IMG/VR virus record: IMGVR_UViG_3300025082_000005
Span: 1-64,000 of that record
Source of the DNA: a virus
Reading direction: 5' to 3' (one strand)
Length of the DNA: 64,000 nucleotides
Positions 1,181 through 53,193 of the stretch are shown piece after piece. Every line of letters begins with the position of its first letter. Position 1 is the first letter of the stretch. The translations under genes were made by a program, and so were the position numbers. The notes beneath the pieces were generated by a model. The model made no database searches. It saw nothing but the letters and a program-made list of their open reading frames with translations, and was not told the DNA's origin.

Positions 1181-3612
1181 GTAATTCAAGATATGGAGGA
1201 GAGTTTCCAACGATGCCTCCTCAAAAGATAGCCCTCGGTATGAAGGGCGACAAATGGAGGGAGATGTGCGTCGATGCTATTGATGGTCTTGCTACCTCCG
1301 TAGCCTGGGATGGAAGATCTTCCAAACAGCGTAAGCAGATTAACTATAATTTACTTAACTCCAAACTTGACGAAGGTGACTATAAGCATGTCTTAGATCC
1401 CTATGGTATAGGAGACAAGTATGGTAAGTCCCCTGCCCGTTTACATGATATTAATATTATACGCCAGAAGGTCGAGCTGCTCAAAGGAGAGGAGATTACT
1501 CGACCTTTCGACTTTATGATCATGTGTGTCTCTGGTGGTGGTGTTTCAGAACGAGAGGAATTCGAGAAAGATTTAGCTATCAAGACTGCACGTTATCAGA
1601 TGCAGAAGGAAGCAGGCCTTAATCCAGAAGAGCCGGAGGAAGGAATGCCTAAGAGCCTTAAGGATATTCAAAGCTACATGGAGAACGAGTATGTCAATAT
1701 TCGGGAAGAGTACGCTGGTAATGTCATGCGTAATGGCTTAGAAGAACAACGCCTAGAGTTCAAGTTCTCCGAAGGCTTCGAACACGCCTTGGCTGTAGCT
1801 GAGGAAGTATATTACTCGGGCATCGTTGCTAACGAACCTGTGGTAAGGGTGGTCAATCCATTATACTTCGAGTGGGAGAAAGGACCAGAAGTACGTAATG
1901 TACAAGATGCTGGTTGGGCCAGAGAGGAGCGCTACATGACTACCTCCGAAATAATTGATGAGTATTCGGAGTTCTTAACTGAGAAACAAGTAACAGACCT
2001 GGACAATGGTTTGAATAGCTATGGGATGAATCGAAATACGATGCTTCCTGGTTATGGTTATCAGATGGAAGATATGATGTCCTATGAACAGATGGACAAC
2101 TATAGTGATCGTTCTCAGACCTCTTATCTTCGTGTACTTACTGTTGTATGGAAATCACTTAAAAGAATTGGTTTCCTTCGTTACTTTGATGAAGAGGGAG
2201 AGGAGCAAGAAACGATCGTTGAAGAAGGACACAAATTGACTCCAGAAGAGGAGGAAGCAGGAGCAACTATAGAATGGCAATATATAAGTGAAGTTTGGAA
2301 AGGTACTAAGATCGGTGATGATATCTTCTTGGATATCAATCCTACTGAGAACCAAATGCGTACAATGGATAACCCATCTGAATGCAAGCTTCCTTATGTT
2401 GGAATGACATATAATAATACCAACTCAGTACAGACTTCATTGGTGGATCTATTAAAGCCTCACCAATACTTGTATAACGTTGTTTGGTATCGAATAGAGA
2501 ATGAAATAGCTAAGGCTAAAGGTAAGAAGGTTCAAATAGATTTGGCTCAAATGCCTAAGTCTCACGGTATGACTACTGAGAAGTGGATGTACTACTTTGA
2601 TAATATGGGTATCATCTATATCAACTCCTTCGAGGAAGGTAAGGCTGGTACTAGGGCTCAAGGTATGCATGCAAATCAGAACTTGGTAAGAGAGATTGAT
2701 CTAAGTTTATCCAATGTTGTACAACAATACATGATGATCCTCAATAAGATAGAGGAACTTATCGATGGTATTTCTGGTGTATCTAGACAAAGAGAAGGGG
2801 CTATCCACCAGAATGAAACCGCTGGAGGTGTAGAGAGGGCAGTTAATCAATCTTCAACGATTACTGAATACTACTTCCATCGCCATGATGAAATTAAACG
2901 AGAAGTCCTTCGCCAATATATAGAAACTTCTAAGTATGCATACGCAGGAGGAAAGAAGATACATCGTATTACTTCCGATATGCAACGTATCTCTATGGAG
3001 ATCGATGGGGAAATTTATGTAGATTCAGATTACAATCTATTCCCCACCAACGCTACTAGAGATAAGATTATGAAAGCCAAGCTTGAAGGTTTGGCTCCTA
3101 TAGCGATGCAACAAGATAAAGCAAACCTATCTGATCTTGTTAGTCTGTATAAATCGAACTCTATGGCTGAGTACGAGAAGAAACTTATTGCAAGTGAGAA
3201 AGCTAAGATTGCTAGGGATCAAGAGATGCAACAACAAGCAGAAAGGATCAACCAGGCTAATATCGAAGCACAACAAGCTGCTGATGAGAGAGAACACGAA
3301 CAGAAACTTGAGGAACTTGATCGTAAAGGTGAATGGGATGTACGTAAGGCTGTTGTAGTTGGCTCAGGGTTTGCCGAAGATAAAGATATGGATGGTGATG
3401 GTATTCCAGATATCTCTCAAGAAGGTGAACGCCAATTAGAATCTGCCCGAGTAAATGGTGAATTCCTATCTAGGGAACGCCAACGAGGAGCAGATGCTAT
3501 CAAGCACGATAAGGAACTTCGCTTCAAGCGAGATGAGATGGCATCCAAGGAACGGATGAATAAAGAGAATAATAAGACCGCACTTAAGAACAAAGTAACC
3601 GGAGAGAAATAA
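1177..3612 (+). CDS. Portal protein
   Basis: An 811-residue portal protein, the dodecameric ring at the unique capsid vertex through which DNA passes. It directly follows and overlaps TerL, and its length and content fit crAss-like portals. A conserved-looking block near residues 525-590 (ISGVSRQREG, then NETAGGVERAVNQSS) resembles the stem and clip region of portals. The last 150 residues are highly charged and probably coiled coil. Near residues 735-746 sits a DxDxDGxxD calcium-binding-like loop (KDMDGDGIPDI). The stop TAA shares its last A with the ATG of the next gene. Function is assigned from synteny plus family resemblance; the calcium loop is a motif reading only. Confidence 0.87.
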   Translation: MSNSRYGGEFPTMPPQKIALGMKGDKWREMCVDAIDGLATSVAWDGRSSKQRKQINYNLLNSKLDEGDYKHVLDPYGIGDKYGKSPARLHDINIIRQKVELLKGEEITRPFDFMIMCVSGGGVSEREEFEKDLAIKTARYQMQKEAGLNPEEPEEGMPKSLKDIQSYMENEYVNIREEYAGNVMRNGLEEQRLEFKFSEGFEHALAVAEEVYYSGIVANEPVVRVVNPLYFEWEKGPEVRNVQDAGWAREERYMTTSEIIDEYSEFLTEKQVTDLDNGLNSYGMNRNTMLPGYGYQMEDMMSYEQMDNYSDRSQTSYLRVLTVVWKSLKRIGFLRYFDEEGEEQETIVEEGHKLTPEEEEAGATIEWQYISEVWKGTKIGDDIFLDINPTENQMRTMDNPSECKLPYVGMTYNNTNSVQTSLVDLLKPHQYLYNVVWYRIENEIAKAKGKKVQIDLAQMPKSHGMTTEKWMYYFDNMGIIYINSFEEGKAGTRAQGMHANQNLVREIDLSLSNVVQQYMMILNKIEELIDGISGVSRQREGAIHQNETAGGVERAVNQSSTITEYYFHRHDEIKREVLRQYIETSKYAYAGGKKIHRITSDMQRISMEIDGEIYVDSDYNLFPTNATRDKIMKAKLEGLAPIAMQQDKANLSDLVSLYKSNSMAEYEKKLIASEKAKIARDQEMQQQAERINQANIEAQQAADEREHEQKLEELDRKGEWDVRKAVVVGSGFAEDKDMDGDGIPDISQEGERQLESARVNGEFLSRERQRGADAIKHDKELRFKRDEMASKERMNKENNKTALKNKVTGEK

Positions 3613-4763
3613 TGGCCAAGAAAAGCAAACTAAGAAGCCGTAAAGAACAGAATCGTCTGAAGGGAGCTATGGCAAGCCCAAGCCTCAAGGTACATGAAGC
3701 TACTACAAGTCCACGTATTCGAACAATAACGAAATCAAGTAGACGATATAGGTTCGGTGCCAAGGAGGTGAAGTTCCAAGAAGAACAACCTGTGCCTAAG
3801 TTTAACTTTGGTATGGGCAGCATCATGTCCATGTTCGGAGGCGGTGCCTCTGGAGGAGGTGGAGGTGGAGGTATGCTTAGTGGAATAATGGGTAAAGGCG
3901 GTGGAGACACTGGAGCAACTGCAATGAGGGCCTTATCCAAACAAGGAGAAGAGAAGAAAGAAGGAGAAGCAGCGCCCCCACAAACAGAGGGTATGCCTGA
4001 TCCAAAGGCTAATGCTGGAAGCATGCCTGGAGGTGGAGGTCGTGGTGGTCTTGCTGGTAAGATTCCTGGACCAGTAGGTATGATTATCCAAGCTGCTGAT
4101 AAGAAACTAGATGAGCAAGGGGCTGCTATCGCTCCATTAAATGAGAGAGGCAGGCGCTTGAATAAGTATAAGCAAGGTGTAAGACAGTACGAAGGAGGTA
4201 CACCATACTACACCGGCAATGAGGATATGGGCGGTATTGTGCAATTCCAAAAGAAGAACCCGCTTAAGAAGTGGAAGAATGTTGGAAAGGCAATGAAGAT
4301 TGGAAGCTCAGTGGCAAGCGTATTGAACCAACCTGTCGACAAGGTAACAGGTGGAATGGCTACCAAGGGCACGAACAACATGGCCTCATTAGGAAGCGCG
4401 ATGGGGAATACTACTATAGGGGAGAAGGATTTCGGGGGATCTGCAGGAAACAAGCCAGTAGCTGCTGCTCCTACTAACCCTGAGGCTACTCAATTTATAG
4501 ACCCAAATAAGTCCTATGGTAAACGTATGAGTACTGGTACCAAAGCAGGAGCTAGTGCAGATAATTTAATTGACAGCACTACCAACAAAGCTGGTATGGC
4601 TCCGACAACACCATTGACTACTCCTTCAAGCAAACGAGCTACAGGGGGCGCTACTAGAATTACGAATAAAGCAATTATGGAGGGTGGTCTTGATCCTCTT
4701 GGTATACCAAAGCAGAAGAAAGGAACTAGGAAACTTAAACTTAAGAAGGCTAAGCGTAAGTAG
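3612..4763 (+). CDS. Gly-rich, basic virion-associated protein of unknown function
   Basis: A 383-residue protein between portal and the putative scaffold. The first 25 residues and the last 20 are Lys/Arg rich, suggesting DNA or RNA contact. Residues about 70-100 are a low-complexity Gly tract, and a second Gly-rich segment lies near 140. The middle has the phrase NKYKQGVRQYEGG, similar in style to the NRYKAGG and NRYK phrases in the 716-residue internal protein encoded at 17945. The ATG overlaps the portal stop by one base. Its position in the head block suggests a minor structural or ejected protein. I recognise no enzymatic motif. The 89 bases after it hold no gene and no obvious hairpin. 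Confidence 0.6.
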   Translation: MAKKSKLRSRKEQNRLKGAMASPSLKVHEATTSPRIRTITKSSRRYRFGAKEVKFQEEQPVPKFNFGMGSIMSMFGGGASGGGGGGGMLSGIMGKGGGDTGATAMRALSKQGEEKKEGEAAPPQTEGMPDPKANAGSMPGGGGRGGLAGKIPGPVGMIIQAADKKLDEQGAAIAPLNERGRRLNKYKQGVRQYEGGTPYYTGNEDMGGIVQFQKKNPLKKWKNVGKAMKIGSSVASVLNQPVDKVTGGMATKGTNNMASLGSAMGNTTIGEKDFGGSAGNKPVAAAPTNPEATQFIDPNKSYGKRMSTGTKAGASADNLIDSTTNKAGMAPTTPLTTPSSKRATGGATRITNKAIMEGGLDPLGIPKQKKGTRKLKLKKAKRK

Positions 4764-23091: not shown

Positions 23092-23133
23092 GTTTATTTC
23101 TACATTACGTTATAATTGTTTATCTTTATCGCT

Positions 23134-26100
23134 ATGCCAGAAAACAATAAACCTACGAGTATAAAACCTACTGTTAATCCATTATTTGGACCAGGAGAAA
23201 CTGAACTAGCTATTAATCCTTTGACTAGGCTTCCAGTAGAGGCCCCGAAGCGAATGGATAGACGAGAGCAGGCTCATTTCCAAACCACCATGGATCAAGT
23301 CCCTGACCTACAACATGTCAAGGACTTAGGAGACTATACAGAATATGGTGTTTCTATGTTTCCACAACTGGAGCATAATTGGAAAACAGAGCAAGCCCAA
23401 AACCAATCTGGATGGGAACATGCCTTGGGCTTCCTAAACCAAGGAGTTGTAGGTGAAGTTGTAGGAGGTATGATCGAAGGCTTTGGTTGGCTTGGTGAAT
23501 ACAATACATGGGCTAATATATCTAAAGGCGAAGAGGAAGAAGTGGGCAATTTCCTTATTGATATAGGCGAAGGAATACAAGATTGGACTAAAGAGGCTAC
23601 ACCTATTTATGAAGATCCTAATGCCTCTGCTTGGAATCCTGCATCTTCTGCATGGTGGGCATCTAAAGGTACTAGTGTACTTTCATTCGCTTCTATGCTT
23701 ATTCCTGCTGCCGGGGCTGTAAAGGCCATAGGCGTTGTAGGTAAAGGCTTAGGTATGCTTGCTAAAGCAGCAAAGCTTGCCAAAGGCCTAGGGAAGTTAG
23801 GTAAAGTTGGTAAGGCTCTTAAAGGCGTTCAGATGTCTGCAAAGGGATCGAGAATGTTGAAACTGGCTGGTAAAGGTATGGCACAAGCTGTAGTTTCCAG
23901 ACACATTGAGAATAATATGGAGGCCTCAGGTGTCTTCAAAGAACAATATGATAAGTTTATCTCTGCTGGTTTAGATGATAAAGAAGCAAAGAAATTAGCT
24001 GGTGAGGCTGCACAGGATACATATGTAAGGAATTGGGCCATGCTTGCTCAAGATATTCCCCAGTATATGCTAATGGGTAGTAAAGTTAAATTAGGAGGCT
24101 TTGCCGAGAAAGCTTTAACCAAGGCAGCAGGGGCTACAGCAGCGAAGGCCTTAACTAATAAGTACCTTGTTACAGGGCTCTCAGAAGGCTTAGAAGAATC
24201 CTTCCAATTCTGGGTAGGAGAAGAAGCCAAGTATCTAACAGATGTAAAGGCTGGTATAGCTAAGGAGTCCTCACATGGAGAAAGGATGAAGAAGTATCTC
24301 AAGAATGGAGAACTTTGGACATCGTTCTTCTTCGGTGCGTTCGGTGGTATGGCTATGGAAGGAGCAGGGCCAGGTATAAAGAAAGTAACGGAAGGAGCAA
24401 CTGAGAGGTTATCTACGATGCCTGCTAAGGGCTTGCACCATCTAGGGGCTTCTATTTCTGCTATTGCTAGAAAGACAGGAAGGAATTTATTCTATAGTGA
24501 TGCTATTAAAGCTGCTGATGAATCTGGAGATAAAGAAGCTAGTACCTACTTACGAAAGAAGTGGAATATAGATACAGCTATCGACCACTTAGACCAGGAT
24601 ACATTTGCTGGCTATATGGAAGATATAGAGAACTTTAGTGAGACAAGTAAAGAAGATAAAGAAGAATTTGCTGAGAAGCATGGATTGGATCCACAACAAT
24701 TATTGGACTTACAAACTAACTATGCTTCTTATATCAAAGATGCTGGACAAGCTAAAGAAATATATGACGGGTATAAGAACGATGGCTATGCGGAAGCTAC
24801 TTTAGCTCCAATGGTTATGAGAGCTATGGATGCCCAAATCGCTTCTGATTTAAGTATTCAAGCCTCTGAACAAATAGTGAATAAGTCTGCTACCCGAGGT
24901 AAGGAATCTCTTACTCCCGGTTCAGGAGAAGCCGTTTATAGTGCGAGTATCGAAGTTCGTCGTATCAAAGAGGCTCTTAAGGTATACTCGAAGGAGGCTA
25001 AGAATAAAGGAACAGGAAAGGCTCGACAAGAAAGGGTAAGCAAACGAGTAAAGGAACTTACCTCAGAGCTTAAGGACGCAGAGAAGGTTCTAGTAGAGGC
25101 CAACGCTATTGAAAGAACTGCAAGCGAGAAACGAGCTGACGCCCGAGTAATAAAGCGTGCCCTTTCCGAAAGGGGCTTGTTCAAGGCATATAATACTAAG
25201 GAGTATAATGATATGCTAACGGAAGAGGCTCAGGATGAAATTGATCATCTTCAAGGAGATGCGATCCAGAATGAGCATAAGTATACTACCGACGTAAACG
25301 AATTAATTAATGCAAAGGATAGAGGAGAACATAATCAAGTTGTAGACAAGATAAGGGAGAAGTACGGAGAAGCTATACCAGAGCCTATAGCTAAAGCAAT
25401 AGCTGGTACTTCTAAGATGATGCAACTCAGGGAGATGCAAAGCTCTGAGAAGAAGCAAGCGAATGCAAATGAGAAGGGCATAGCTGAGAAACGTGAGGAG
25501 ATTAAGAATGAAACTGATTTAACCAAAGCCGTTATGGATGCCGATGGCATGCGTAAGGATATGGGAGAAGAAGGGGCGTCTGCCTTGGAAACGGAACAAG
25601 TAACTAGTACTGTCTCAACTAAACAGAACATAGAAGGAGCTACTAGGGCTTCTGATGCCGTAGCAGCATCTAATACGAATGATGAGAACCCAGGCTCAGC
25701 AGAACCAACAACCAATTCTGTGCCTTTGCCTAAGGTTACGAAGTCCATGAAGGATAGTATGCTTTCTTTCAATTGGACCTCGGCACGTAATGGAGGGTCT
25801 ACAGACTCTGCTAATCAAGTACTTACAGATCTATTAGAAGACCCTAAGTTCAAAGCTGTTGGTACTAAGCTTGAATTGGTAGTAGAAGGAGATGGTATTA
25901 GAGCCATACTTTTAAATGCCGATGGCGAATGGATAACAACCAACGATAATCCAGTTGGTCCTCTATTACATATGCCGATCGATCAGAAAGATAATCCTAA
26001 TTTCACTTCTGGAAAGCGGGCTGAACTAGGAGCATTGATCGCCCAAGTACGTGAGGCATCTGAGAAAGGCTTGAGAGTCTTCACAGAGATCACCAAGCGT

Positions 26101-29100
26101 ACAGGTGGACATAAGCAACTAGGATTAGAACCGATATCCATCAGGGAGATAGAAACAGCTACAGGGGCTCCTGCGAAACTTATGGTTTCCTTAGGAACTT
26201 CATTGATGTATCATAATGGTAATCCCGTAACCGATACGGATGCTACTGGTACAGGTGGGGCTATATACTTAGAAACTAGGGATATTGAAGGGAACTTGGT
26301 TCCTATGAAATTGGATGCTTCTTACTTAACCAGAGAAGAAGCAAACCTTATGGTGGATCTCTATACAGATTTCCAGAACAGGAACACCTGGTTCAATACA
26401 CCAGTAGCTGATAACCCAATGGTTGAGGGCCTTACTTATGGACAAGCTTTCGAATTGCTTGCGTATGAAGGTTCTAAGACAGCGAATACCATTATAACAG
26501 ATGAGGAAAGCGAAGATTATGGCAAGCGTAAGGATTTATACTACAATAAGAATACTAAGTCGCTTCATTTCGGAGCTAAGGCTATTCCTATTGATAAGAT
26601 AAACGAAGTTCGAGAAGACATCGTTGATTGGATGATGGCTATGGTGCCGAGATATGCTTCCATTAAGAAATTGAATCTTCCTATGAGTGAGTGGGCTACT
26701 AGAGACGGACGTACGTCTACAGCCAAATTCTCTTTCATGGGAAAGGACTATACAGTTAAGGATAAGTATAATGACTTCCTTATCGATAGTGAGAAGTACT
26801 TAACTAATCTCTCACCAAACGATGGTAAGTTATTTATCCAACCTACTATCGAATTCTCTTCTACTTTAGATATAGAAGAAGAGACAGCTCAAGAACCTGT
26901 TGTTCCTACGCCAGAACAGACAAAGGAAGCAGGAGGAGACACTAAGGAAGCCAAAGCCCCAGATAATCCATTTGGTGGAGTAAAGCGTAAGAAGACAGGC
27001 TTTAATCTAATGGCTGCACCTAGTGGAGGATATACTATAGCTAATATGGCTGAGGAAAGAGCTTGGCTTGAAGCCGTTCTTCCGAATGTTCCTGTAACAG
27101 TTATAGATGGCTTGATTAGAATGGCTAATAAAGGCGGTCGTGCTTACGGAGCCTATGTTAATGGTATGATACAACTTTCCAATATAATGGAAAAGGGCAC
27201 AGCTTACCATGAAGCCTTCCATGCAGTATCTCAATTGTACTTATCTGAGAATGAAAGAACTGAATTATATGAGGAAGCAAGATCTAAGTATGGAACTCCT
27301 ACACAAGAACAGCTTGATGCTCGAAAAGTAGAATCGGAGCAAGATTGGTTTGAGGAGAAGCTTGCTGATGATTTCAGAGCCTTTGTACACTCTGAGGGAA
27401 CCATGAGCTTCCATCCTAAGGCCAAGAGCTTCTTTGGAAAGCTATGGGAGATGATCAAACACTTGTTTGGTTCTCGTTCTAAAGTAGATCAAGTATTCGC
27501 TAAGATCAATAGAGGATACTATGCTACTGCTCCAATGTCTGGAAGAGTAGCCAAGATGACCAATAAGGCTTTATACAATAGAGCCGATAATTTAAATGTA
27601 AGTCAATTCTATGACATAGTTGATACGATTACATTCTCTGTAGTCCAGGAGTCAAAGTTAATGGAGACTGAGGATATTTCAGCTCTTACTATGGAGGCTA
27701 TCAGCACTGATGCTATTTCCGGACATCTTGCTACATACTATGATTTGGCAATGGAGGCTAATAACCTAACTACAGCCAATATCTTTATAGCTGCTAATGC
27801 TGATGTAGACGCTATAAGGTCTGCAATCTTAGATAAATTTAATGAGATGCAGTTAGAGGTCAACCCAGAGGTTCAAGCTATTCTTGATACTGATGACCTC
27901 ACAGAGGAAGAGAAGACTGAGAAACTGAATACTAAGTCAGCTTTCGAATACTCAGGTAAGGATAATGCCACTGGAAACGTTAAGCTTCTACTTTCCATGG
28001 TTCCTAAGCTTAAGAGCACAGACTTGATAGAACAAGAAGATGGTAGTGTTGTTAAGGATTACGAAATCAATCCTAACACTGGTCTTCCTAGATTAGCATA
28101 TGCTGCTTCTACTTGGGCAGCTTTGGCTAAGTCTTTATCTGGTATTGTCGATAGCTACATATATGAAACAGGAGAACTTACTACAGCTTTCGATAAGATG
28201 CTTGTAGCTATGGATGAGTTGACAACAACTCGACCAGAAATCTCCATCCTAACTGCCAAACTACGGGACCCTGCATACCCAATGCATAAGAAGATTCAAT
28301 TCTTCAGTGCCTTCTCTAAGGCTAATATGCAATACTATACAGCTAGATTTAAGAAAGAAGGACAGATCAAACAATTTGTCTTTAGTAAATCTGAATCAAG
28401 GAGCCCAGCGGAGCAAGTAAGAAATGAGTGGGTTCAGAATTTCAGAGATAAGATGTATGCTTACTCTGGAGACCATATGGCTTTAGATAGTGAACCTTTG
28501 ACCTTTGCTTACTCTCTTATGGTTTCTCTTAAGGAAGATGTATTGGAGGCGATACAAGCTCGAAAGGAACTGAATGTAGAAGTACCAGTAGAAGAATACA
28601 AAGAGCAATTGTTCCAAAGCTTGAACAGTGTTGGTATCGAGCTTTCAAGGCCTGCCTTTAATTATTGGATGGAAGGGCGTCCTGGAAACAACGAAGATCA
28701 ACGCTTGAAGAATGCTGTTACAAAGGTTGCTATTATGTTTGAAAGTCCTACAGGGCTTACTAAGGTTATTACAGATGGTGCCGAAGGTAAGAAACCTTGG
28801 GTGAAGAGCGAGAAAACCGCATTAGCTTTAGCTGAAGTAGAATCTCTATTTAGAGAAGACCTCTCAGAATCTGGAGTACTTGGAGCAGATAACTCTATGT
28901 ACTATACATACTCATTGAATAACTTCTTGATTAAGAAGATTCAAGAGATAAAGAATAACGATGAATACCTTGAGAAGTTAAGCAAGATTCCAGGTAATGC
29001 TAATGCTATTTGGATTTCAGAGCTTCTAAACAATAAGAAGACTAGAGAAGAGTTTAACTATAACGTATTCAATAACTTACGTGAGGAAGCAGCAGGAGAT

Positions 29101-32100
29101 ACGGGAAGTAAGTTCTCTGATCTTAAGCCTGCAGATGAGTTAGCTTTAAGGATTAACCAAACACTGCAAGGCAGGTACTCATTGCTTACTGCTGCGGATA
29201 AAGGTGTATACACTACCATTACTGGCTTTGCCCCTAAGAAACTTGAGTTAGATTTCAGGGGAGATGATATAATCTTCAACAACGTATCCACAGTAGATAT
29301 CATAGGGAATTACTTCATAGATGAACTTGCTAGAATGTCTCAAGCTTGGAATGAGGTACATGGGCCTAATGCTATCCCTGTAGAGCAACAAGTAGAGCAT
29401 TACCATAAAGGTAAACGTCATGCTTTCAAATCTCAATTATTTCCTTCGCTAAGCCCGATCGAAATTACCGAATCGGGAGAGGTGGTGGATAATATAGATT
29501 TGGATGTAGATACGCTTGAGCTTATTAAGACATACATTACCTCAGATAATAATAAACCTACTTGGGGAACAAAGACAGTTAATCAACTAAGACCAAAGGT
29601 AGAAGGCCTTCTTAAGCGATTAGCTGAGAAAGAGATAGACCTAGCAGTGCAGACAGGTGTCCTTCAAAAGCAAGGAGGCAACCTTATTAATGTGGGGTTA
29701 GATACTTCTGTGCTTAAGACCTTTAGAAAGAAGGGCGCTACAGATACTCAGGCAATCAAATCTATGATGGCTGATTATATGGTTAATTCGTTGATTGCCC
29801 ATGTAGAAACTGGAAAGCTATTCACTGGTGACCCTGCTTACTACAAGTCTCTCGATGACTTGAAGAAGCGTGTACCAGGAATTATAGCTCCAGGGCAAGA
29901 CCTATTCATCCATCCCGCAGAAAACGGAAGAGAGAGACAATTCTACAATGTAGCCATTGTAAAGGACATCGAAGAAAACATGGCTGTAACGCAGCCTGAG
30001 GTCTATAAAGGGTATAAAGATGCTTTAATAGAATCAGGAATGTCTGAATCTGAGGCAGAAGAAGCCTTAAGTCCTTACAGAGAAATTAATGTAGCAGATG
30101 CTCAGGCATATGTTACTATGGAACGATATAAAGACTTGTTGCAAATGCTTGGTAAGTGGAGGCCTTCTATGGAAGCCCCTTTCGATAGATTAAGCAAAGG
30201 AGAAGAAGTAGTTGCGGAAGACGTTAGCTTATTCCTTCAACCATTGAAAGGGATGTACTATGATCTAGTGCCTTCACCAACTGGTAATCGTATGCAACCG
30301 GTCTACCTTAAGTATTCTTTGGCTCCATTGATCCCTGGCATGATCCGTGGAACCAAGATGCAAGGTGTCTTGGCTGCAATGAAACGAGATAAAGTACAAG
30401 AGCTTGTATTTGAATCAGGTATCAAAGTAGGAGCAAGGGGACAAGTAGACATCAAAGATGCAGACCTCAAGTTTAATCCAATAGAACTTGATAATCGTAA
30501 CTGGAAGTTACAACAAGATCTTTCTGCTAAGTATTTGAAGAAAGGAGAAGCTATTGAAGGGTCTCAAGTACTTAAGAATGCCTTAGCGAATATCAATCCT
30601 TCGGCAATGTATGGAGATAAGGAAGGCGCTCAACTCATTGAGGAGTTTGTAGCAGCTGATAGATACCTATCTGATCTTGGTGCCGAAAGCCTTAAGAAGG
30701 AATTTGGTGTTACTTTAGATGAGAAAGGAGGTATTGTTTCTATTGATAAGAAGAAATTGTACCCAGTACTTATTAAGGAACTCAAAGCAGAAGCTCCTAA
30801 ATATGTACTAGAGGCTTTAGATAGAGGTGTAGCCTTAGATGCCATACCTCAATTCCGTAAGAAGATCCAACAGAAATTGCTCTCAATGGTTACAGCAAGG
30901 ACTGTAAGATTGAAGATGCCTGGAGGATCATTTGTACAAATGTCTCCAGCAATGTTTGAGGCAATTACTGGTTCAGATATATATAAAGAATCGGACATAC
31001 TTTGGTTAACGGATGGTACTGCGTTATTACCTCCTAGAATAGAGGACGGAATAAGTAAGCCTGGACAAGTACTTGTACCTCATAGCTTGGTTAATAAGTA
31101 TCCAGGATTTATGGATATGACTAAAGCTGAACAAATTAAGCTACTACGTCAAGCTCAAAAGGAAGGACTATTAGAGGGTGTTGGGTACCGTATCCCGAAT
31201 CAGGATATGGCTTCTACAGATTATCTGGAGGTTGCTGGTGTTCTACCAGCGTATATGGGAGATACTATCATAGCCTATTCAGCCATTACCGCGAAAACAG
31301 GCTCTGATTATGATATCGATAAGATGTACTTCATGCTTCCTAACTTTGATCTTAAGATCAATAAGAGAGCAATGAGAAAGGACTTCTTAGAAAACAATAA
31401 AGGGCTTTTCGATACATTACGTGAGGAGGCACAGATTAAGGATATGGATAATTCTACTTTGTTTAAGTCTATACAAGAACAAAGCAGAAGTGGTCTTGAT
31501 CTTACAGAAACAGAACAAGCTTTAGTAAAGGCTTGGAAAGATATGAATAAGGAAGACTATGTAAGTGGCATCACTAAGACGCCTTCTTCCTTAGACAACA
31601 AACGGTCTGCACAGAATTACAAATTAGATAGGTATAAGGAGATTCTTCTTGCTAAGGAAACCTTTACTCGATTGATTTCTCCTATCGATGCTGAATGGTT
31701 AAAGAATGACACAAAGAAGATCAGAGAACTACTTGGTCAAGAGACTAAACTTGGAGATCTTGAATTCTTTTCTGGATATGAACAATATGTAACCAAGCGT
31801 AAGTTCGCTGGGGGACAACATGGTGTAGGACAAACAGCTAATCACCTAGTTGATCATGTTCTTACTCAAATGGCTGGAGTATTCCTTACAAGAAACTTTG
31901 GCTTGGGGCATGGTTATGGGGATGCTACTTCTGTTGCCGAAACTAAGGAATTAGATGGTTCGAGATATATTACTTCAAACGTCTCTGCTTACATGAATGC
32001 GTATGTAGATATAGCTAAAGATCCATATATCTTTGATTTGAACAATAATACGTTCACAGCGAATACAGTCTTCTTGCTTATTAGAATGGGGGTAAAGCCT

Positions 32101-35100
32101 GAATGGATTAATCGATTCACGACCCAACCTATCATCAAAGAATACACAGACCTTACTTTAAATAGTGAAGGTAGAGTAAACGAAACGCAGTATGATGATG
32201 GTAAGCCTATTAAGCCTATTGATATCATTAAGCAAATGGAGAAGTATGCGGTGAAAGAGGTGATACCTTTCTCCAATGATAGCATGCCTTCTAAGAAGAC
32301 ACTAGAGGCTCAACTAAAGGATCCAACTGCAGCTACACAACGTCAATTGTTGTCCTTGTTCTTAGAACTTCAAGAGTATGCTAAGGCATTGAACCTACAA
32401 TTACGGGCATCTAAAGCAGATACCAAAGGAGCTGGAAGAACTTTAATGGAAGCCTTTATTGCACAGAATGTAAAGCTAGAAGCCTTAGCGAGTCCATTGA
32501 TAGAGAATGTCGATCGTAAGTTCGATAGCACTATGTTGGGAACATATTATGATAACTCAGTCCTTCTTTCGCTCCAAGCATTTGGTGGAGAGTTTATGGG
32601 GATGTCTAAAGCTGTACAAGGAACTGTTGAGAAGATTGGAACTATGACCGGTAAGTTTCCGGTTACTGATCTTGAGATAGCTACTCTTATTGAGAATGAG
32701 GCATACACATACCTAATGAAGGACTTTCCTTTATTCCAACATGAGAACCCACGTAGCTTATTCTTTGGTAATACAAGTACAGCTAGGGCCTTAGAAGCTC
32801 TACAGAAAGGAGAAGACTCTCCAGTTAAGGAGAATTTGCTAATTAGAAACTTACAAGTAAATCGAGGAGAAGGGCTTGATCCAGACTTCATCGACATTGC
32901 TGGATCAAGTAAGAAGGATAAGCAAGGACAAGAAGCCTTAAGTGAAGCATGGTATGATCTTATTACTCATCCAGATGAGGTTATCTCAAACTTTGGGAAA
33001 GAGTTGATTACTTATGCTTTCCAAACAACTGGTTTGAATCAGACAGCTTCTGCTTTCTTTGACTTAATGCCTCCAAGATTCTTAGAGGAGCATAAGTTCA
33101 AGGAGTATGTCAGTGGTATGAACTCTGTTGTTCAGGAGACGGCTGGAGGAGTAGGCTACCTTGATAACTTCGCTGGTCGATTCCTTCGAAATAACTGGGC
33201 CAACAATAAGCTTGTGCCTGTAGCTTCTGATATGGCCAAGCAATCAGTCAATAATTATCCTGAATCTATTGCTTTCCGTATTCATGAGAAATCGTCTAAC
33301 TATGTTGTAGGTTTAGACGAGAATGGTAGGAAGGTATTCTATCCATACCTCAAGACAAAAGCTTCTCTATTTCGTCTACAGGGATATAAAGACACACTTA
33401 AAGGTAGAACCGCTATTTATTCTAGAGCTACGAAACGTGGTCTAGATGCAGGAAGATATAAGATCAAAGACTACAATAAGCGTCCAATGGATTTGGATGA
33501 CACCTTAGGCGTTCAATTAATAGAGGGACAAGACTATACTACTAAGTATATGCCTCCTATGGAGCCTTTTACAGAGGATGAAACACAAGAACAACGTTTC
33601 TCTTCTATGGCTGCAGAAACTATGTCTGGTCTCCATACTAAGATAGAACTAGTTCAAGGGCTATTTGATGCTGATTTCGTATTGGATGAGACGCTGCCAG
33701 GAGTAGCTAATGTGAAGCCTGGAACTACAGGAAGACCTTTGATTACCATCAATCCTATCAAGATGAAGGAAGATACGGTTATCCATGAGGTAGGCCATAT
33801 CTATATCGATTCATTAGGAGGCATGGGAGACCCTTTCATACGTGCTGGGGTTGAGCAATTGAATGGTTCTGTAGCAGAACAGATTGTAACTAAGAACTAT
33901 CCTAATATGACAGGAGAAGCTAAGAGCAAAGAAGTTCTTGCTACTGCTATTGGTATGGAAAGTGCTAAGCTCTTTAATGCAGAGGTACATAAGAAAGGAA
34001 AGTGGAATAGATGGCTTGTAGGTCTATGGTCTAAGGTAAAGGCAATGTTTGGTATCAAGCCAAATGTAGCTAAGCAGATGGCTAGGGAAATCCTTACTGA
34101 TCGTATTCGAAAGGGAGAACACTCTTTATCGGAGTATACCCAAGAACAACGTGACGAGGCTGCACAAGACAATATGGATGATCTCGATGCAGTGCAATCG
34201 CTTCTAAATAGACTTAAAGCGTCTATGCGTCTTAAGATCAATATCCATGAGAAGAAGACAGAGGCTGCGCACAGTAAGGAGACTAAAGAGTTGAGAGAGG
34301 CGCACTTAGCGAAACTTGAAGAGCTTCTTGGTCAAATTGAGAAGGCTCAGAATTATGAAGGCTTGCTCTTATTTATCGAGAAAGCACAGAAGGATACTGA
34401 TGCCATACGTAAACGACTAGATAATTTCTTGGAAACTAAGGAGCCTATACCTCTCCAAAGTCTACAGGAAATGAAGACGTATATTGGTACTTATGATAAT
34501 ATTCAAGATATCAGAAGGGCCATACATAGAGTAAAAGACTTTGATTTATCTACAGTAGATGAACGTTTAGATACAATTGAACGTAACTTAAGTAGAGTCA
34601 ATCTTTCTTACGAGCTTATTGCTAAAGATAATCTTGTAGATTCCATGCTTCCATACTCTACAAGGAATGAACATATGGAATTCCGAACTAAGTATGCCGA
34701 AGAGTTCCAAACGAATATCGAACCTCAAGGAACGAAGAAAGGGAAAGAGCTTAAGAACTGGAAAGCGCGTAGAGCTGCTTACATTAATAACCGTGTGGCA
34801 GAGAACAAAGCTGAGATTAAGACCGCTGAGAGAGAGTACTTGTACCAGTTGATAGAGGAATCTAAGGCTGATTTGACATACTTCGATTCTCATATCTTAG
34901 ATCCAAGAGCTGTGAATAACCAAGTTATCCAACTTACTGTAAAGGCACTAGATAGAGCTGATTACGACAGTATGAGAAGCTTTCAAAACGCCTTCAAGAG
35001 CGTCTATACTACTTGGGAGAAGTTTATGGAAGGCAAGAAAGCTAAAGGCATTACTGATATTAAGGCTATCTATGCTCCTTTATTAACCAAGGAAACTACA

Positions 35101-37314
35101 TATGTAGGAGGAAAGAAAGAAAAGAAAGAAGTAAGCGTATATATAGAGAAACACGATTACACCTCATTCATGCGAGCAGAAGCTGTAGCAAGCAGGAAAG
35201 CAAATATGGATAAGAATAAGCATGATGAGATCATCGATGCTTTCTATGCTGAGAATGCTACACTAGTAGATGGATCTTGGGTACCAAACGATAAGTATTT
35301 GTCTAAGGAATACCAAGCACTCTCTCCGGAGAACAAGGAGATGTTGGATGCCCTACGGAAAGTGAATGCTAAAGCAGACAACCTTCTCCCTGTAGGAAGT
35401 CAACTCAAGAACCGATTACCAAGTATTCGAGCTTCTTTGATGGAGACATTCAAGACTAGTGGCTTTAAGGCTGCTATAAAGGAATGGAGGAAGGAAACCT
35501 TTACTACTGAGTCAGATGAGACTGATTTTGGTAATATGTCTATACAGAAGGAAACTAAGAAGAAGTTTGCCTTCCTTTGGGCCAATGAGAAGCTTGAGCA
35601 ATCTAAGCTTATTCCTATCTTCTTCCGAAGTGAATTAACTGAGAAGGAACAGTCCTTTGATTTGATGGGAATGGCTATGAGTAATTACTACATGGCCTCT
35701 AATTTCCATAACAAATCTAAGGTCTCAGCAAATATTGAAGTACTTAGGGATCTAATCAAGGCCTCCCGAGTAGGAGAGACTAAGGATTGGAAACGTAAGA
35801 TGGTGGCTGGTCTTGGCCTGGGTAACCTAATTCCTATAACCAAACCAGGAGGAGAGTCTAATCTTTCTAAAGCTTTGGAAAGCCTTGTAGATGATCGACT
35901 ATACGGTATACGAGAAATCGATGCAGGGTCTGTCAAGATATTAGGTAAAGAGATGAGCCTGAATAAGATATCTAAGCTGGTAGCTGGTTGGACGGCTGAT
36001 ACTACGTTGATCTTGAACTATGCTTCGGCTTCTTCTAACCTTGTAATGGGCCATGTCCAGACATTTATAGAAGCAGGAGCGAAGACCTTCTATGATCGAG
36101 GGGATGTAAAGAAAGCCTTTGGGAAATACCGTAAGGATATTAAGGATATCCTTGGTGATGTAGGTAAAGAAGAACATATCTATAAAGCTAAGACTAACCT
36201 TCTTATGGAACGCTTTGATATGCGAGGGGAATTCTCTGGACTGATCAATAGTATGCTTTCCGATACTAAGATGAAGCGGTTGTTCAGTAAGCAGACTGCC
36301 CATGGCTTGAATGGTTTGGCTGAACACAACATACAAGGTGTGCTCATGTATTCACTATTGAACAATATCCGAGTACAAAACGCTAAAGGGGAATATTTAA
36401 CCAAGGATGGCACCACTAAGGAATTTGCTGATGCTATGTCTTTGGATGAAGCTTATACTGTAGTTGATGGTAAGCTTGTAATGGATTCTAGAGTAGCCAA
36501 AACCACTAAAGATCTATCCGGTACTTCCTTTGGACAAGCAGAAGAGTCTGAGATCTCTGGATACTTGAAGTATATTAATGCTGATCTTAATGGTAACTAC
36601 GATTCAAATAACCGATCGGTTTGGCAAAGACATGTACTTGGCCAACAAGCTTTCTTAATGAAGAAGTGGATACCAAGAGCCTTCAAACGTAGATGGGGAG
36701 GAATCCAACATGCTTTCACGGATAGAGCTGATATGGAAGAACACCAAAGAAACTACAACGAGTATATCAAGATGGAGAGCGAAGGTTTATATGCTACACT
36801 TCTTCGATATATGGGCAATACAGTTAAAGCTGCTAAAGAGCATAAGTTCAAAGCCTTTAGTCTTGAGTGGGAGAAGCTTGATGATATGCAGAAAGCTAAT
36901 CTTGCTAGAGTCCAATGGGAATTCGGCATGCTTGCTTTAGGTGCATTTGGTTCTATGTTGATCGCTGGCTTAGCTGGAGGAGATGACGACAAGGATAAGA
37001 AGTCACAAGGTATATACTTTGTTGCCTACTTATTCCGTAGACTGTACTCAGAGCTTTCCTTCTTTACTGATCCTGTAGAGATGTTGAAGATGGCTGATAC
37101 TCCATTGATGGGCTTACGTACGATAGCAAACCTATTCAAAGCTTTCTATGGTTTGATGCCTTGGAACATCACAGATACGTATAAAGGAGGAAAGGATAAG
37201 GACGACCTTAAGATTTGGAATAAATTTAGTAAGACTATGCCTATTCGTACAGCCATGGGACAACTAGATCGAGACTTCGAGAAGTCTTACCATTTCCTAT
37301 TACGAGGTTATTAA
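23134..37314 (+). CDS. Giant virion RNA polymerase polyprotein with two zincin domains
   Basis: 4726 residues from ATG 23134 (an upstream in-frame TTG at 23116 is rejected). It is the largest gene here. The crAss-type RNA polymerase signature is present: D2725-Y-D2727-I-D2729-K, the metal-binding loop of the beta'-like double-psi barrel. Upstream, a beta-like barrel segment around residues 2395-2433 ends in FESGIKVG (K2431). Two HExxH zinc-protease motifs flank it: HEAFH at 1359-1363 with a downstream E-K-L-A-D-D-F helix, and HEVGH at 3551-3555 with a downstream KEVLATAIG. Hydrophobic segments occur near residues 185-230 and about 4590-4610. The polymerase is known in relatives to be packaged and ejected to transcribe early genes. 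The proteases probably process this or other virion proteins (inference). Confidence 0.88.
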   Translation: MPENNKPTSIKPTVNPLFGPGETELAINPLTRLPVEAPKRMDRREQAHFQTTMDQVPDLQHVKDLGDYTEYGVSMFPQLEHNWKTEQAQNQSGWEHALGFLNQGVVGEVVGGMIEGFGWLGEYNTWANISKGEEEEVGNFLIDIGEGIQDWTKEATPIYEDPNASAWNPASSAWWASKGTSVLSFASMLIPAAGAVKAIGVVGKGLGMLAKAAKLAKGLGKLGKVGKALKGVQMSAKGSRMLKLAGKGMAQAVVSRHIENNMEASGVFKEQYDKFISAGLDDKEAKKLAGEAAQDTYVRNWAMLAQDIPQYMLMGSKVKLGGFAEKALTKAAGATAAKALTNKYLVTGLSEGLEESFQFWVGEEAKYLTDVKAGIAKESSHGERMKKYLKNGELWTSFFFGAFGGMAMEGAGPGIKKVTEGATERLSTMPAKGLHHLGASISAIARKTGRNLFYSDAIKAADESGDKEASTYLRKKWNIDTAIDHLDQDTFAGYMEDIENFSETSKEDKEEFAEKHGLDPQQLLDLQTNYASYIKDAGQAKEIYDGYKNDGYAEATLAPMVMRAMDAQIASDLSIQASEQIVNKSATRGKESLTPGSGEAVYSASIEVRRIKEALKVYSKEAKNKGTGKARQERVSKRVKELTSELKDAEKVLVEANAIERTASEKRADARVIKRALSERGLFKAYNTKEYNDMLTEEAQDEIDHLQGDAIQNEHKYTTDVNELINAKDRGEHNQVVDKIREKYGEAIPEPIAKAIAGTSKMMQLREMQSSEKKQANANEKGIAEKREEIKNETDLTKAVMDADGMRKDMGEEGASALETEQVTSTVSTKQNIEGATRASDAVAASNTNDENPGSAEPTTNSVPLPKVTKSMKDSMLSFNWTSARNGGSTDSANQVLTDLLEDPKFKAVGTKLELVVEGDGIRAILLNADGEWITTNDNPVGPLLHMPIDQKDNPNFTSGKRAELGALIAQVREASEKGLRVFTEITKRTGGHKQLGLEPISIREIETATGAPAKLMVSLGTSLMYHNGNPVTDTDATGTGGAIYLETRDIEGNLVPMKLDASYLTREEANLMVDLYTDFQNRNTWFNTPVADNPMVEGLTYGQAFELLAYEGSKTANTIITDEESEDYGKRKDLYYNKNTKSLHFGAKAIPIDKINEVREDIVDWMMAMVPRYASIKKLNLPMSEWATRDGRTSTAKFSFMGKDYTVKDKYNDFLIDSEKYLTNLSPNDGKLFIQPTIEFSSTLDIEEETAQEPVVPTPEQTKEAGGDTKEAKAPDNPFGGVKRKKTGFNLMAAPSGGYTIANMAEERAWLEAVLPNVPVTVIDGLIRMANKGGRAYGAYVNGMIQLSNIMEKGTAYHEAFHAVSQLYLSENERTELYEEARSKYGTPTQEQLDARKVESEQDWFEEKLADDFRAFVHSEGTMSFHPKAKSFFGKLWEMIKHLFGSRSKVDQVFAKINRGYYATAPMSGRVAKMTNKALYNRADNLNVSQFYDIVDTITFSVVQESKLMETEDISALTMEAISTDAISGHLATYYDLAMEANNLTTANIFIAANADVDAIRSAILDKFNEMQLEVNPEVQAILDTDDLTEEEKTEKLNTKSAFEYSGKDNATGNVKLLLSMVPKLKSTDLIEQEDGSVVKDYEINPNTGLPRLAYAASTWAALAKSLSGIVDSYIYETGELTTAFDKMLVAMDELTTTRPEISILTAKLRDPAYPMHKKIQFFSAFSKANMQYYTARFKKEGQIKQFVFSKSESRSPAEQVRNEWVQNFRDKMYAYSGDHMALDSEPLTFAYSLMVSLKEDVLEAIQARKELNVEVPVEEYKEQLFQSLNSVGIELSRPAFNYWMEGRPGNNEDQRLKNAVTKVAIMFESPTGLTKVITDGAEGKKPWVKSEKTALALAEVESLFREDLSESGVLGADNSMYYTYSLNNFLIKKIQEIKNNDEYLEKLSKIPGNANAIWISELLNNKKTREEFNYNVFNNLREEAAGDTGSKFSDLKPADELALRINQTLQGRYSLLTAADKGVYTTITGFAPKKLELDFRGDDIIFNNVSTVDIIGNYFIDELARMSQAWNEVHGPNAIPVEQQVEHYHKGKRHAFKSQLFPSLSPIEITESGEVVDNIDLDVDTLELIKTYITSDNNKPTWGTKTVNQLRPKVEGLLKRLAEKEIDLAVQTGVLQKQGGNLINVGLDTSVLKTFRKKGATDTQAIKSMMADYMVNSLIAHVETGKLFTGDPAYYKSLDDLKKRVPGIIAPGQDLFIHPAENGRERQFYNVAIVKDIEENMAVTQPEVYKGYKDALIESGMSESEAEEALSPYREINVADAQAYVTMERYKDLLQMLGKWRPSMEAPFDRLSKGEEVVAEDVSLFLQPLKGMYYDLVPSPTGNRMQPVYLKYSLAPLIPGMIRGTKMQGVLAAMKRDKVQELVFESGIKVGARGQVDIKDADLKFNPIELDNRNWKLQQDLSAKYLKKGEAIEGSQVLKNALANINPSAMYGDKEGAQLIEEFVAADRYLSDLGAESLKKEFGVTLDEKGGIVSIDKKKLYPVLIKELKAEAPKYVLEALDRGVALDAIPQFRKKIQQKLLSMVTARTVRLKMPGGSFVQMSPAMFEAITGSDIYKESDILWLTDGTALLPPRIEDGISKPGQVLVPHSLVNKYPGFMDMTKAEQIKLLRQAQKEGLLEGVGYRIPNQDMASTDYLEVAGVLPAYMGDTIIAYSAITAKTGSDYDIDKMYFMLPNFDLKINKRAMRKDFLENNKGLFDTLREEAQIKDMDNSTLFKSIQEQSRSGLDLTETEQALVKAWKDMNKEDYVSGITKTPSSLDNKRSAQNYKLDRYKEILLAKETFTRLISPIDAEWLKNDTKKIRELLGQETKLGDLEFFSGYEQYVTKRKFAGGQHGVGQTANHLVDHVLTQMAGVFLTRNFGLGHGYGDATSVAETKELDGSRYITSNVSAYMNAYVDIAKDPYIFDLNNNTFTANTVFLLIRMGVKPEWINRFTTQPIIKEYTDLTLNSEGRVNETQYDDGKPIKPIDIIKQMEKYAVKEVIPFSNDSMPSKKTLEAQLKDPTAATQRQLLSLFLELQEYAKALNLQLRASKADTKGAGRTLMEAFIAQNVKLEALASPLIENVDRKFDSTMLGTYYDNSVLLSLQAFGGEFMGMSKAVQGTVEKIGTMTGKFPVTDLEIATLIENEAYTYLMKDFPLFQHENPRSLFFGNTSTARALEALQKGEDSPVKENLLIRNLQVNRGEGLDPDFIDIAGSSKKDKQGQEALSEAWYDLITHPDEVISNFGKELITYAFQTTGLNQTASAFFDLMPPRFLEEHKFKEYVSGMNSVVQETAGGVGYLDNFAGRFLRNNWANNKLVPVASDMAKQSVNNYPESIAFRIHEKSSNYVVGLDENGRKVFYPYLKTKASLFRLQGYKDTLKGRTAIYSRATKRGLDAGRYKIKDYNKRPMDLDDTLGVQLIEGQDYTTKYMPPMEPFTEDETQEQRFSSMAAETMSGLHTKIELVQGLFDADFVLDETLPGVANVKPGTTGRPLITINPIKMKEDTVIHEVGHIYIDSLGGMGDPFIRAGVEQLNGSVAEQIVTKNYPNMTGEAKSKEVLATAIGMESAKLFNAEVHKKGKWNRWLVGLWSKVKAMFGIKPNVAKQMAREILTDRIRKGEHSLSEYTQEQRDEAAQDNMDDLDAVQSLLNRLKASMRLKINIHEKKTEAAHSKETKELREAHLAKLEELLGQIEKAQNYEGLLLFIEKAQKDTDAIRKRLDNFLETKEPIPLQSLQEMKTYIGTYDNIQDIRRAIHRVKDFDLSTVDERLDTIERNLSRVNLSYELIAKDNLVDSMLPYSTRNEHMEFRTKYAEEFQTNIEPQGTKKGKELKNWKARRAAYINNRVAENKAEIKTAEREYLYQLIEESKADLTYFDSHILDPRAVNNQVIQLTVKALDRADYDSMRSFQNAFKSVYTTWEKFMEGKKAKGITDIKAIYAPLLTKETTYVGGKKEKKEVSVYIEKHDYTSFMRAEAVASRKANMDKNKHDEIIDAFYAENATLVDGSWVPNDKYLSKEYQALSPENKEMLDALRKVNAKADNLLPVGSQLKNRLPSIRASLMETFKTSGFKAAIKEWRKETFTTESDETDFGNMSIQKETKKKFAFLWANEKLEQSKLIPIFFRSELTEKEQSFDLMGMAMSNYYMASNFHNKSKVSANIEVLRDLIKASRVGETKDWKRKMVAGLGLGNLIPITKPGGESNLSKALESLVDDRLYGIREIDAGSVKILGKEMSLNKISKLVAGWTADTTLILNYASASSNLVMGHVQTFIEAGAKTFYDRGDVKKAFGKYRKDIKDILGDVGKEEHIYKAKTNLLMERFDMRGEFSGLINSMLSDTKMKRLFSKQTAHGLNGLAEHNIQGVLMYSLLNNIRVQNAKGEYLTKDGTTKEFADAMSLDEAYTVVDGKLVMDSRVAKTTKDLSGTSFGQAEESEISGYLKYINADLNGNYDSNNRSVWQRHVLGQQAFLMKKWIPRAFKRRWGGIQHAFTDRADMEEHQRNYNEYIKMESEGLYATLLRYMGNTVKAAKEHKFKAFSLEWEKLDDMQKANLARVQWEFGMLALGAFGSMLIAGLAGGDDDKDKKSQGIYFVAYLFRRLYSELSFFTDPVEMLKMADTPLMGLRTIANLFKAFYGLMPWNITDTYKGGKDKDDLKIWNKFSKTMPIRTAMGQLDRDFEKSYHFLLRGY

Positions 37315-51804: not shown

Positions 51805-51880
51805 TGCGGGGTAGAGAAGCGGCATCTCGCCAGGCTCATAACCTGGAGATCATTGGTTCGAGTCCAATCCATCGCAACTA
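51805..51880 (+). tRNA. tRNA-Met (anticodon CAT), atypical acceptor stem
   Basis: A cloverleaf can be drawn: D arm GAGA/TCTC, anticodon arm CCAGG-CTCATAA-CCTGG with CAT at 51837-51839, and T arm ATTGG-TTCGAGT-CCAAT. The acceptor is GCGGGG against CC(A)TCGC with one bulged A. The unpaired-looking first position and overall layout recall bacterial initiator tRNAs, but the anticodon stem lacks the full GGG/CCC. It ends in ACTA, so a CCA end is not fully encoded. Elongator Met or lysidine-Ile are alternatives. It lies 21 bases after the last rightward gene. Confidence 0.8.
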
Positions 51881-52036: not shown

Positions 52037-52468
52037 TTACCCGTTCTTTACCTCAGAGACATTCACTCGAATCTCTTGAGCTTTGTTCTTAATTTCCATC
52101 ATAGCTTTACGAACTCTCGTTCCTGCTGCTGCGTTTCCTTTGTCGTAGAACTTCTTGAAGTCTGCTTCCGACTCCACTACTAGGGCTAATAATTTGTTGT
52201 ACTCTTCCATTATATTATTTAATTTAAATTGATTACGTAATTTGTTTCCATACTCTATCATTCCTTTATCTATTTCTCTACAAGATAGACAAGTAGGAAG
52301 AAGGCATTGTTGAGCAGGGTTGTTAGAGCTATGCCTTACCCATTTCCTTACTCCTTCACAATAACGAAAGAGTATGAAGTCCTTTCTTTTGGGCCTTGGT
52401 GTGTCCTCTATTTCTTTAAGTAATTTATCTAGCTCTTCCCAAGTTATAGGTCTCCACGTTTTAGCCAT
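52037..52468 (-). CDS. Protein with C-terminal Hc1 histone-like domain
   Basis: 143 residues. The C-terminal 57 residues (from M87, EEYNKLLALVVESE...) include FYDKGNAAAGTRVRKAMMEI, close to the GNKAAGTRARK core of bacterial histone H1-like (Hc1) proteins of Bacteroidetes, which compact DNA. The N-terminal 86 residues contain CLLPTCLSC and match nothing I know. An internal ATG at 52210 sits after a very AT-rich stretch resembling the leaders of other genes here, so the histone part may also be made alone. The ATG overlaps the glycosylase stop by one base. Confidence 0.7.
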   Translation of the reverse strand: MAKTWRPITWEELDKLLKEIEDTPRPKRKDFILFRYCEGVRKWVRHSSNNPAQQCLLPTCLSCREIDKGMIEYGNKLRNQFKLNNIMEEYNKLLALVVESEADFKKFYDKGNAAAGTRVRKAMMEIKNKAQEIRVNVSEVKNG

Positions 52469-53193
52469 TACCAGGTAATTTCTCTTTGTCCTGTTTCCTT
52501 CAAGAACTTATTAGCTGTTGCGAAATGATCACAACCAAAGAACCCGGCCTCCTCATGCAGAGATACAGACTCCGCTTCTGGGTGTGCTGCTTCTAATACC
52601 AAATGAGGAGTAGGAGCATCTAAACCGTGTGTAGCTTGTAGATATGCAGACTTCGCAGCCATTCCCCAAAGTAAGAATACCTTGGGCTCTTCATCAAGAA
52701 CAAGCTTACGGATAACCCTAAGTGTAAACCATTGCCATCCTATCTTCTCATGAGACAAAGGCTTTCCTTTCTCTACAGTCAATACTGTATTCAACAATAA
52801 TACACCTTGTAAGGCCCATCGTGTTAAATCTCGTTCTCGAATCAACTCTAGTCCATCGTGTACACTTGTTTCTACTTCCTTTAATATTCCCTCCAAAGAA
52901 GGCGATACATAGTAAGGATCATGAGTAGAGAAGGCTAAGCCATCTGCGACATCTGGAGTACAATCTGGATCAAGACCAATGATTACTACCTTTGTATCTT
53001 GGAATGAAGTAAGTCTAAAGGCTCTAAAGGTGTCTTCCTTTGATGGATATACCTTGACCCCGAATGCTTTCCTTCTCTTCGTTACAAATTTAGCAACCTT
53101 CTTCATTTCAGGCTGTATAAATAACTTGCCTATCTTCCTGAACCAAGAGTACCCAAGGGTGTCTCTAAGTTTCTTCTCTGCGTTTGTGAGCAT
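52468..53193 (-). CDS. Uracil-DNA glycosylase family protein with altered pocket
   Basis: 241 residues, the length of family-1 uracil-DNA glycosylases, which remove uracil from DNA. The catalytic Asp is kept (GLDPDCTP, D75), as are the substrate Asn (LLLNTVLTV, N135), the late His (AAHPEAES, H204) and the GFFGCDHFATAN end. The usual GQDPYHGP reads GLDPDCTP, so the Tyr that keeps out thymine is replaced by Asp77 and the following His by Cys78. HPSPLS reads HPEAES. Substrate range may differ from uracil. It overlaps the MazG-like gene by 29 bases. Confidence 0.85.
   Translation of the reverse strand: MLTNAEKKLRDTLGYSWFRKIGKLFIQPEMKKVAKFVTKRRKAFGVKVYPSKEDTFRAFRLTSFQDTKVVIIGLDPDCTPDVADGLAFSTHDPYYVSPSLEGILKEVETSVHDGLELIRERDLTRWALQGVLLLNTVLTVEKGKPLSHEKIGWQWFTLRVIRKLVLDEEPKVFLLWGMAAKSAYLQATHGLDAPTPHLVLEAAHPEAESVSLHEEAGFFGCDHFATANKFLKETGQREITW

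Follow-up and report, generated by a model that had tools for sequence, protein, structure and literature searches.

The Pfam family PF07432 (Hc1) takes its name from the chlamydial histone-like protein Hc1 (HctA), and we take the family to be the N-terminal dimerisation part of that protein. According to the available text of PMC2848022, the conserved N-terminus of Chlamydia Hc1 dimerises and its Lys-rich C-terminus binds DNA. The presence of Hc1 in phages is already published: the accessible part of PMC12619734, the one paper in which our literature search met the term PF07432, describes a histone H1-like protein in four complete jumbo moraphages, whose predicted hosts are mostly Bacteroidota, and suggests that it compacts the genome during packaging. 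For crAss-like phages, the available text of PMC7886860 gives IHF as a protein thought to aid DNA compaction in virion assembly. Among the titles and abstracts listed in a literature search, none concerned an Hc1 fusion of this kind or an SSB neighbourhood, and narrow searches for functional work on Bacteroidota Hc1 listed none.

Phage T7 offers a functional parallel of another kind. Its gp4A and gp4B proteins come from one frame by means of an internal start, and the long form carries an N-terminal Cys motif that the short form lacks. No homology with the locus described here is claimed. In addition, the two T7 forms are proven, whereas the long and short Hc1 forms proposed below are ones that we infer.

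The locus lies in a stretch of viral DNA of 64,000 nucleotides, called the window in what follows, which is part of a viral contig 71,998 bases long. The features concerned are:

52468..53193, minus strand: UDG-like gene (uracil-DNA-glycosylase superfamily; PF03167, E 4.9e-10), upstream of the 143-codon ORF
52466..52470, minus strand: TAATG overlap, comprising the stop of the UDG-like gene and the start of the 143-codon ORF
52037..52468, minus strand: 143-codon ORF, with an orphan N-terminal half and a complete Hc1 module in frame; stop codon at 52039-52037
52211..52468, minus strand: N-terminal half, 86 codons, with no detectable relatives, a net charge of +6 and Cys37, Cys55, Cys60 and Cys63
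52280..52360, minus strand: Cys-containing stretch C-x17-C-x4-C-x2-C, read from the sequence, in a region of low model confidence
52211..52230, minus strand: A/T-only stretch of 20 bases, leader-like, directly before the internal ATG
52208..52210, minus strand: internal ATG, a candidate start for a short form of 57 aa, judged by its start context and by the same start being used in separate Hc1 genes
52040..52210, minus strand: Hc1 module, 57 codons (PF07432 positions 1-56 of 57), a predicted helical hairpin

Our best explanation, taken as a whole, is a dimerising Hc1 protein of the replication stage, with long and short forms, in a crAss-like phage. We hold it tentatively, at a little less than even confidence.

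The Hc1 module and the phage that carries it

The original prediction placed a bacterial histone-like (Hc1) module in the last 57 residues of the protein without naming the strand, and this was borne out on the minus strand. Against Pfam-A, the 57-aa C-terminal part matches PF07432 (E 1.4e-21, 76.5 bits, cut-off 23.5) over profile positions 1-56 of 57, so the absence of profile similarity that would have spoken against the module was not what was found. With the full 143-aa protein the match covers residues 87-142 (72.6 bits, cut-off 23.5). Since it begins at profile position 1, the start of the Hc1 domain coincides with the internal Met at 52210. The core GNAAAGTRVRK is present, and in a 46-row Hc1 alignment with the window protein as its first row ten columns are invariant, AGTRVRK among them. 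By these matches the window protein is a member of the PF07432 family. It gave no match in NCBIfam and no convincing match in PHROGs. Matches to DUF6456 (E 0.022) and zf-TAZ (E 0.097) fell under their Pfam cut-offs and were rejected.

The window protein ends with the Hc1 domain, with no residues beyond it that could form a tail, and the 57-aa form has a net charge of +2. The Lys-rich, DNA-binding C-terminus of chlamydial Hc1 (PMC2848022, available text) is therefore absent, so the protein is not classed as a DNA-compacting histone of the chlamydial type and 'histone' is used here as a family name, not as a demonstrated function.

The terminase, portal and head proteins belong to the PHROGs families phrog_6681, 6547 and 11589, whose names make no mention of crAss. 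However, the head protein shares 43% identity with that of uncultured phage cr109_1 and its other matches include CrAssphage-named and 'cr' records. It is from these head-protein matches, and not from the phrog family names, that the window phage is recognised as crAss-like (Crassvirales).

The 143-codon ORF is the last gene of a nucleotide/replication operon on the minus strand, which is convergent with the structural module. Primase, helicase and DNA polymerase A genes precede the nucleotide genes in this operon, which also includes the UDG-like, pyrophosphohydrolase (MazG-like), ThyX, dNMP kinase and exonuclease genes. The set given for Crassvirales in the available text of PMC7886860 (Thy1, UDG and dNMP kinase, together with primase and polymerase) matches that of the window phage. 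The TAATG overlap suggests translational coupling to the UDG-like gene, by which the 143-aa form would be initiated.

In a syntenic relative of 89.6 kb, the slot after the UDG-like gene is occupied by an unrelated 116-aa ORF. PF07432 was also sought in 14 related records, most of them short (nine reached via the head protein and five via the UDG), with no match. The Hc1 ORF appears to be a lineage-specific addition.

The surrounding region has some features of its own. The UDG-superfamily protein (52468-53193, minus strand) has GLDPDC where its relatives in loci L162 and L164 have QDPYH; it may be inactive or changed in specificity. The corresponding gene of the syntenic 89.6-kb relative is even further diverged. 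A tRNA-Met (CAT) gene at 51805-51878 (plus strand) lies between the convergent modules, on the 3' side of the Hc1 ORF, and a single ORF of 4732 codons (23116-37314, plus strand) occupies 14 kb of the structural half.

Hc1 relatives in viruses and cells

Two scans of IMG/VR returned at least 508 and at least 579 Hc1 relatives, each among at least 599 matched stretches. In the best 80 viral loci Hc1 is a separate ORF with no more than 18 residues ahead of the domain (ATG starts), and in-frame extensions reach at most 14 codons with ATG only or 22 codons (L083) if GTG and TTG are allowed. For a comparison of lengths, 171 loci were taken from three scans and two without the core string were removed, which left 97 distinct ORFs. 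The longest of these has 75 aa, compared with 143 aa in the window, and the joined form is thus unique among the viral loci examined, which are a part of all relatives. Relatives of the whole protein were also sought in IMG/VR; the two pattern matches obtained were not true relatives.

Three large uncultured phages also encode Hc1, as does cyanophage S-SRM01 (Kyanoviridae), whose host is a cyanobacterium. The latter has a separate 62-codon gene annotated 'histone H1' (MW015081.1 183643-183831; tblastn E 2e-9 with the protein of locus L132). The separate Hc1 genes of moraphages, S-SRM01 and IMG/VR encode the same domain as the window protein, but those of IMG/VR (no more than 75 aa) and S-SRM01 (62 codons) are short, whereas that of the window is a joined ORF of 143 codons. 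The carriers also differ: moraphages are jumbo phages and S-SRM01 belongs to the Kyanoviridae, while the window phage is crAss-like.

The cellular scan gave at least 526 relatives among at least 599 matched stretches, and the best 80 were analysed. These are mostly from Bacteroidota and 54-66% identical to the window Hc1. They share with it the whole 57-residue domain, the start Met and the AAGTRVRK core but, unlike the joined ORF of the window, are separate small genes. Each has an ATG at the aligned Hc1 start, the position of ATG 52210, or at most four codons before it, and the in-frame extension beyond the start is no longer than 25 codons (ATG only), or 67 codons (L065) with GTG and TTG. 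Tails of 15 residues or more occur in 13 of these 80 relatives (for example, the Lys/Ala/Pro tails of Hymenobacter) and in none of the best 80 viral ones. Of 296 genomes sampled from a single phylum, that of the L002 genome, 177 contain an Hc1 match above the cut-off.

Two observations concern cellular loci more generally. Among the matches listed, the longest open frames (L187-L190, 134-170 codons) have an ATG at the Hc1 start as well as earlier in-frame ATGs, and may encode longer Hc1 proteins. A class I/II aminotransferase gene is present upstream of Hc1 in all five loci (L003, L036, L071, L013 and L061) that were picked because a neighbouring ORF of roughly 400 aa precedes Hc1.

In a tree of 82 Hc1 rows and 59 columns, the window protein is placed next to a Bacteroidota MAG protein (97/85) within a mostly viral, weakly supported set, and with so few columns the tree does not allow a donor to be named. 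In our explanation, the crAss-like phage would have acquired a complete Bacteroidota-type Hc1 gene, its own start codon included, which would then have become the C-terminal part of the final ORF of the nucleotide/replication operon.

The N-terminal half and the candidate internal start

The module had been described as fused to an N-terminal half that contains Cys residues and is of no recognisable family, and this description stands. Compared alone with phage sequences, this half gives a best match of E 0.4. Weak matches in two of 395 genomes (phylum of G015) were rejected, on account of a stop inside the aligned stretch in one case and of a match of 28 residues at a contig end in the other. 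The Cys stretch is a possible metal site.

There are 86 open codons upstream of the Hc1 start, compared with 0-25 above 33 other genes of the window, and among 160 Hc1 relatives one (L017) has as many. The synonymous codon score of the N-terminal half is 0.055 (real-gene mean 0.061, wrong-frame mean -0.086), a value reached by 6.6% of wrong-frame windows, and residues 26-65 alone score 0.009, between the two means. The measure is weak at such a length, since the Hc1 half, although undoubtedly coding, itself scores only -0.014. When amino-acid composition is included, the N-terminal half scores 0.017 against 0.293 and lies under 99% of 192 real-gene windows, chiefly due to residues 26-65. It looks compositionally foreign.

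The protein was modelled with AF2 from the 46-row alignment, in which the rows other than the window protein cover the Hc1 part only. The model contains one helix from residue 61 to 110, which runs through the junction, and another from 112 to 142. Block means of pLDDT are 90-98 from residue 81 onward and 52-82 for residues 1-60. When the N-terminal half was modelled from its sequence alone, the mean pLDDT was 67, too poor for a fold search. Foldseek comparison with the PDB and with viral models gave no match at E <=0.001, and a sequence search of solved structures returned nothing credible (best E 0.02). We propose that the Hc1 hairpin would act as a dimerisation module, while the basic, Cys-containing N-terminal half would provide nucleic-acid contact or targeting, replacing the missing Lys-rich tail.

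The internal ATG at 52210 had been said to follow an AT-rich stretch like the real leaders of this DNA. The contexts of 33 other ATG starts of the window (ORFs judged to be genes, ATG starts only) served to derive a position matrix. ATG 52210 scores 6.46, which ranks it first among 413 in-frame internal ATGs (mean -3.77), and only one of the 33 other starts outscores it (leave-one-out; mean of the 33, 1.25). The start at 52468 has an own-context score of -2.7. The 20 bases preceding ATG 52210 are all A/T, which is true of none of the 33 real starts in the matrix set, and the window contains only two A/T-only runs of at least 17 bases, one of which is 52209-52230.

As a control, the residues QFKLNNI were kept and their codons redrawn at random according to the codon usage of the window. 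The recoded leaders have a mean score of 3.65 compared with 6.28 observed (using this test's own matrix); 5.1% of the draws equal or beat the observed score and 1.2% are all A/T. As so much of the score survives recoding, most of the leader signal is due to the encoded residues, and QFKLNNI may itself be a leader that is read through. The likeness to real leaders is therefore weaker evidence for a start than its rank suggests. From the sequence, two products, of 143 aa and 57 aa, are likely, and the 57-aa Hc1 form would be initiated at ATG 52210 after the A/T-only leader. Only by use of this ATG would the module occur as a small protein of its own, like its relatives.

A single product is the alternative that survives best, although we consider it rather unlikely. 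Here only the 143-aa fusion would be made, the A/T-rich stretch would simply code for the long joining helix and ATG 52210 would be an ancestral relic. The one modelled helix across the junction and the large share of the leader score explained by encoded residues are both in keeping with this. However, the relatives in the alignment behind that helix cover the Hc1 part only, and the best context of all 413 internal ATGs falls exactly at the start that is used in the separate relatives.

The separateness of all viral relatives examined also raises the question of whether these are two normal neighbouring genes whose intervening stop was recently lost, or is missing by contig error, with only a separate Hc1 of any importance. 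Several junction codons are one base away from a stop codon, and our searches found no second copy of the Hc1 region, which is known from a single metagenomic contig. Nevertheless, the frame is uninterrupted across 143 codons while each of the other five frames contains stops, and we judge this reading quite unlikely.

Genomic neighbourhood and probable role

Neighbouring genes were counted in the best 80 viral loci. RNR, DNA polymerase, gp32-like SSB or UvsX-like genes occur near Hc1 in 60 of them (23 of 32 after removal of near-identical Hc1). A wider set that also counts PhoH-like, RNA-ligase-like and D12-methylase genes raises the figures to 69 of 80 and 28 of 32. The gp32-like SSB, identified as Pfam PF08804 in the four proteins scanned, is present in 47 of the 80 loci and lies within 600 bases upstream of Hc1 in 43. 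UvsX-like genes are found in 40 loci, PolA in 30 and the RNR small subunit in 12. Because the seed proteins were drawn from these same loci and the count has no random-position control, it describes a pattern and is not a test.

A common order is DNA polymerase A upstream, the gp32-like SSB beside Hc1 and a UvsX-like recombinase downstream (for example, L094, with the SSB at 3139-3909). A 285-aa protein with no match in the phage collection is encoded between the polymerase A and SSB genes in 40 of the 80 loci (for example, L123, 578-1432).

The place of the window ORF in a nucleotide/replication operon and the similar company of its viral relatives suggest an intracellular role in preference to virion packing. 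In the explanation that we prefer, with a long and a short form of a dimerising Hc1 protein, these forms could mix with each other and also with the host's own Hc1, and the target would be phage DNA inside the cell, during replication. For the window protein, the dimerisation, nucleic-acid contact, timing and target are steps that we infer. A more general and more detailed version would make Hc1 a recurrent protein of phage replication modules beside the ssDNA-binding protein, in this case as a nested pair: a long form with a nucleic-acid-contacting Cys head and a short, dimerisation-only form that would tune it and could mix with host Hc1. With all its parts, we regard this version as unlikely.

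The original prediction had suggested that the protein could pack phage DNA or reshape the host nucleoid. We rate both suggestions below a role in replication. Pairing of phage Hc1 with host Hc1, which would disturb or redirect the host nucleoid, draws some plausibility from the 54-66% identity to the best 80, mostly Bacteroidota, cellular loci and from the 177 of 296 sampled genomes with Hc1 in the phylum of the L002 genome. It is, however, distinctly improbable as the main role: the replication operon and the SSB and recombinase neighbours in many phages point to phage DNA, and one carrier, S-SRM01, infects a cyanobacterium. A virion protein compacting phage DNA inside the capsid, as the available texts suggest for moraphage Hc1 (PMC12619734) and for the IHF of crAss-like phages (PMC7886860), is very unlikely here, given a gene outside the structural module and a tailless protein whose 57-aa form is barely basic.

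Hc1 is common in Bacteroidota and is carried by many phages, often beside SSB, recombinase or ribonucleotide reductase genes. If this neighbourhood reflects function, Hc1 would serve phage replication instead of acting as a histone of the virion, and the operons of phages would provide a route to the role of cellular Hc1. The joined gene, with its possible second start, would be a single locus in which dimerisation may be separated from nucleic-acid contact.
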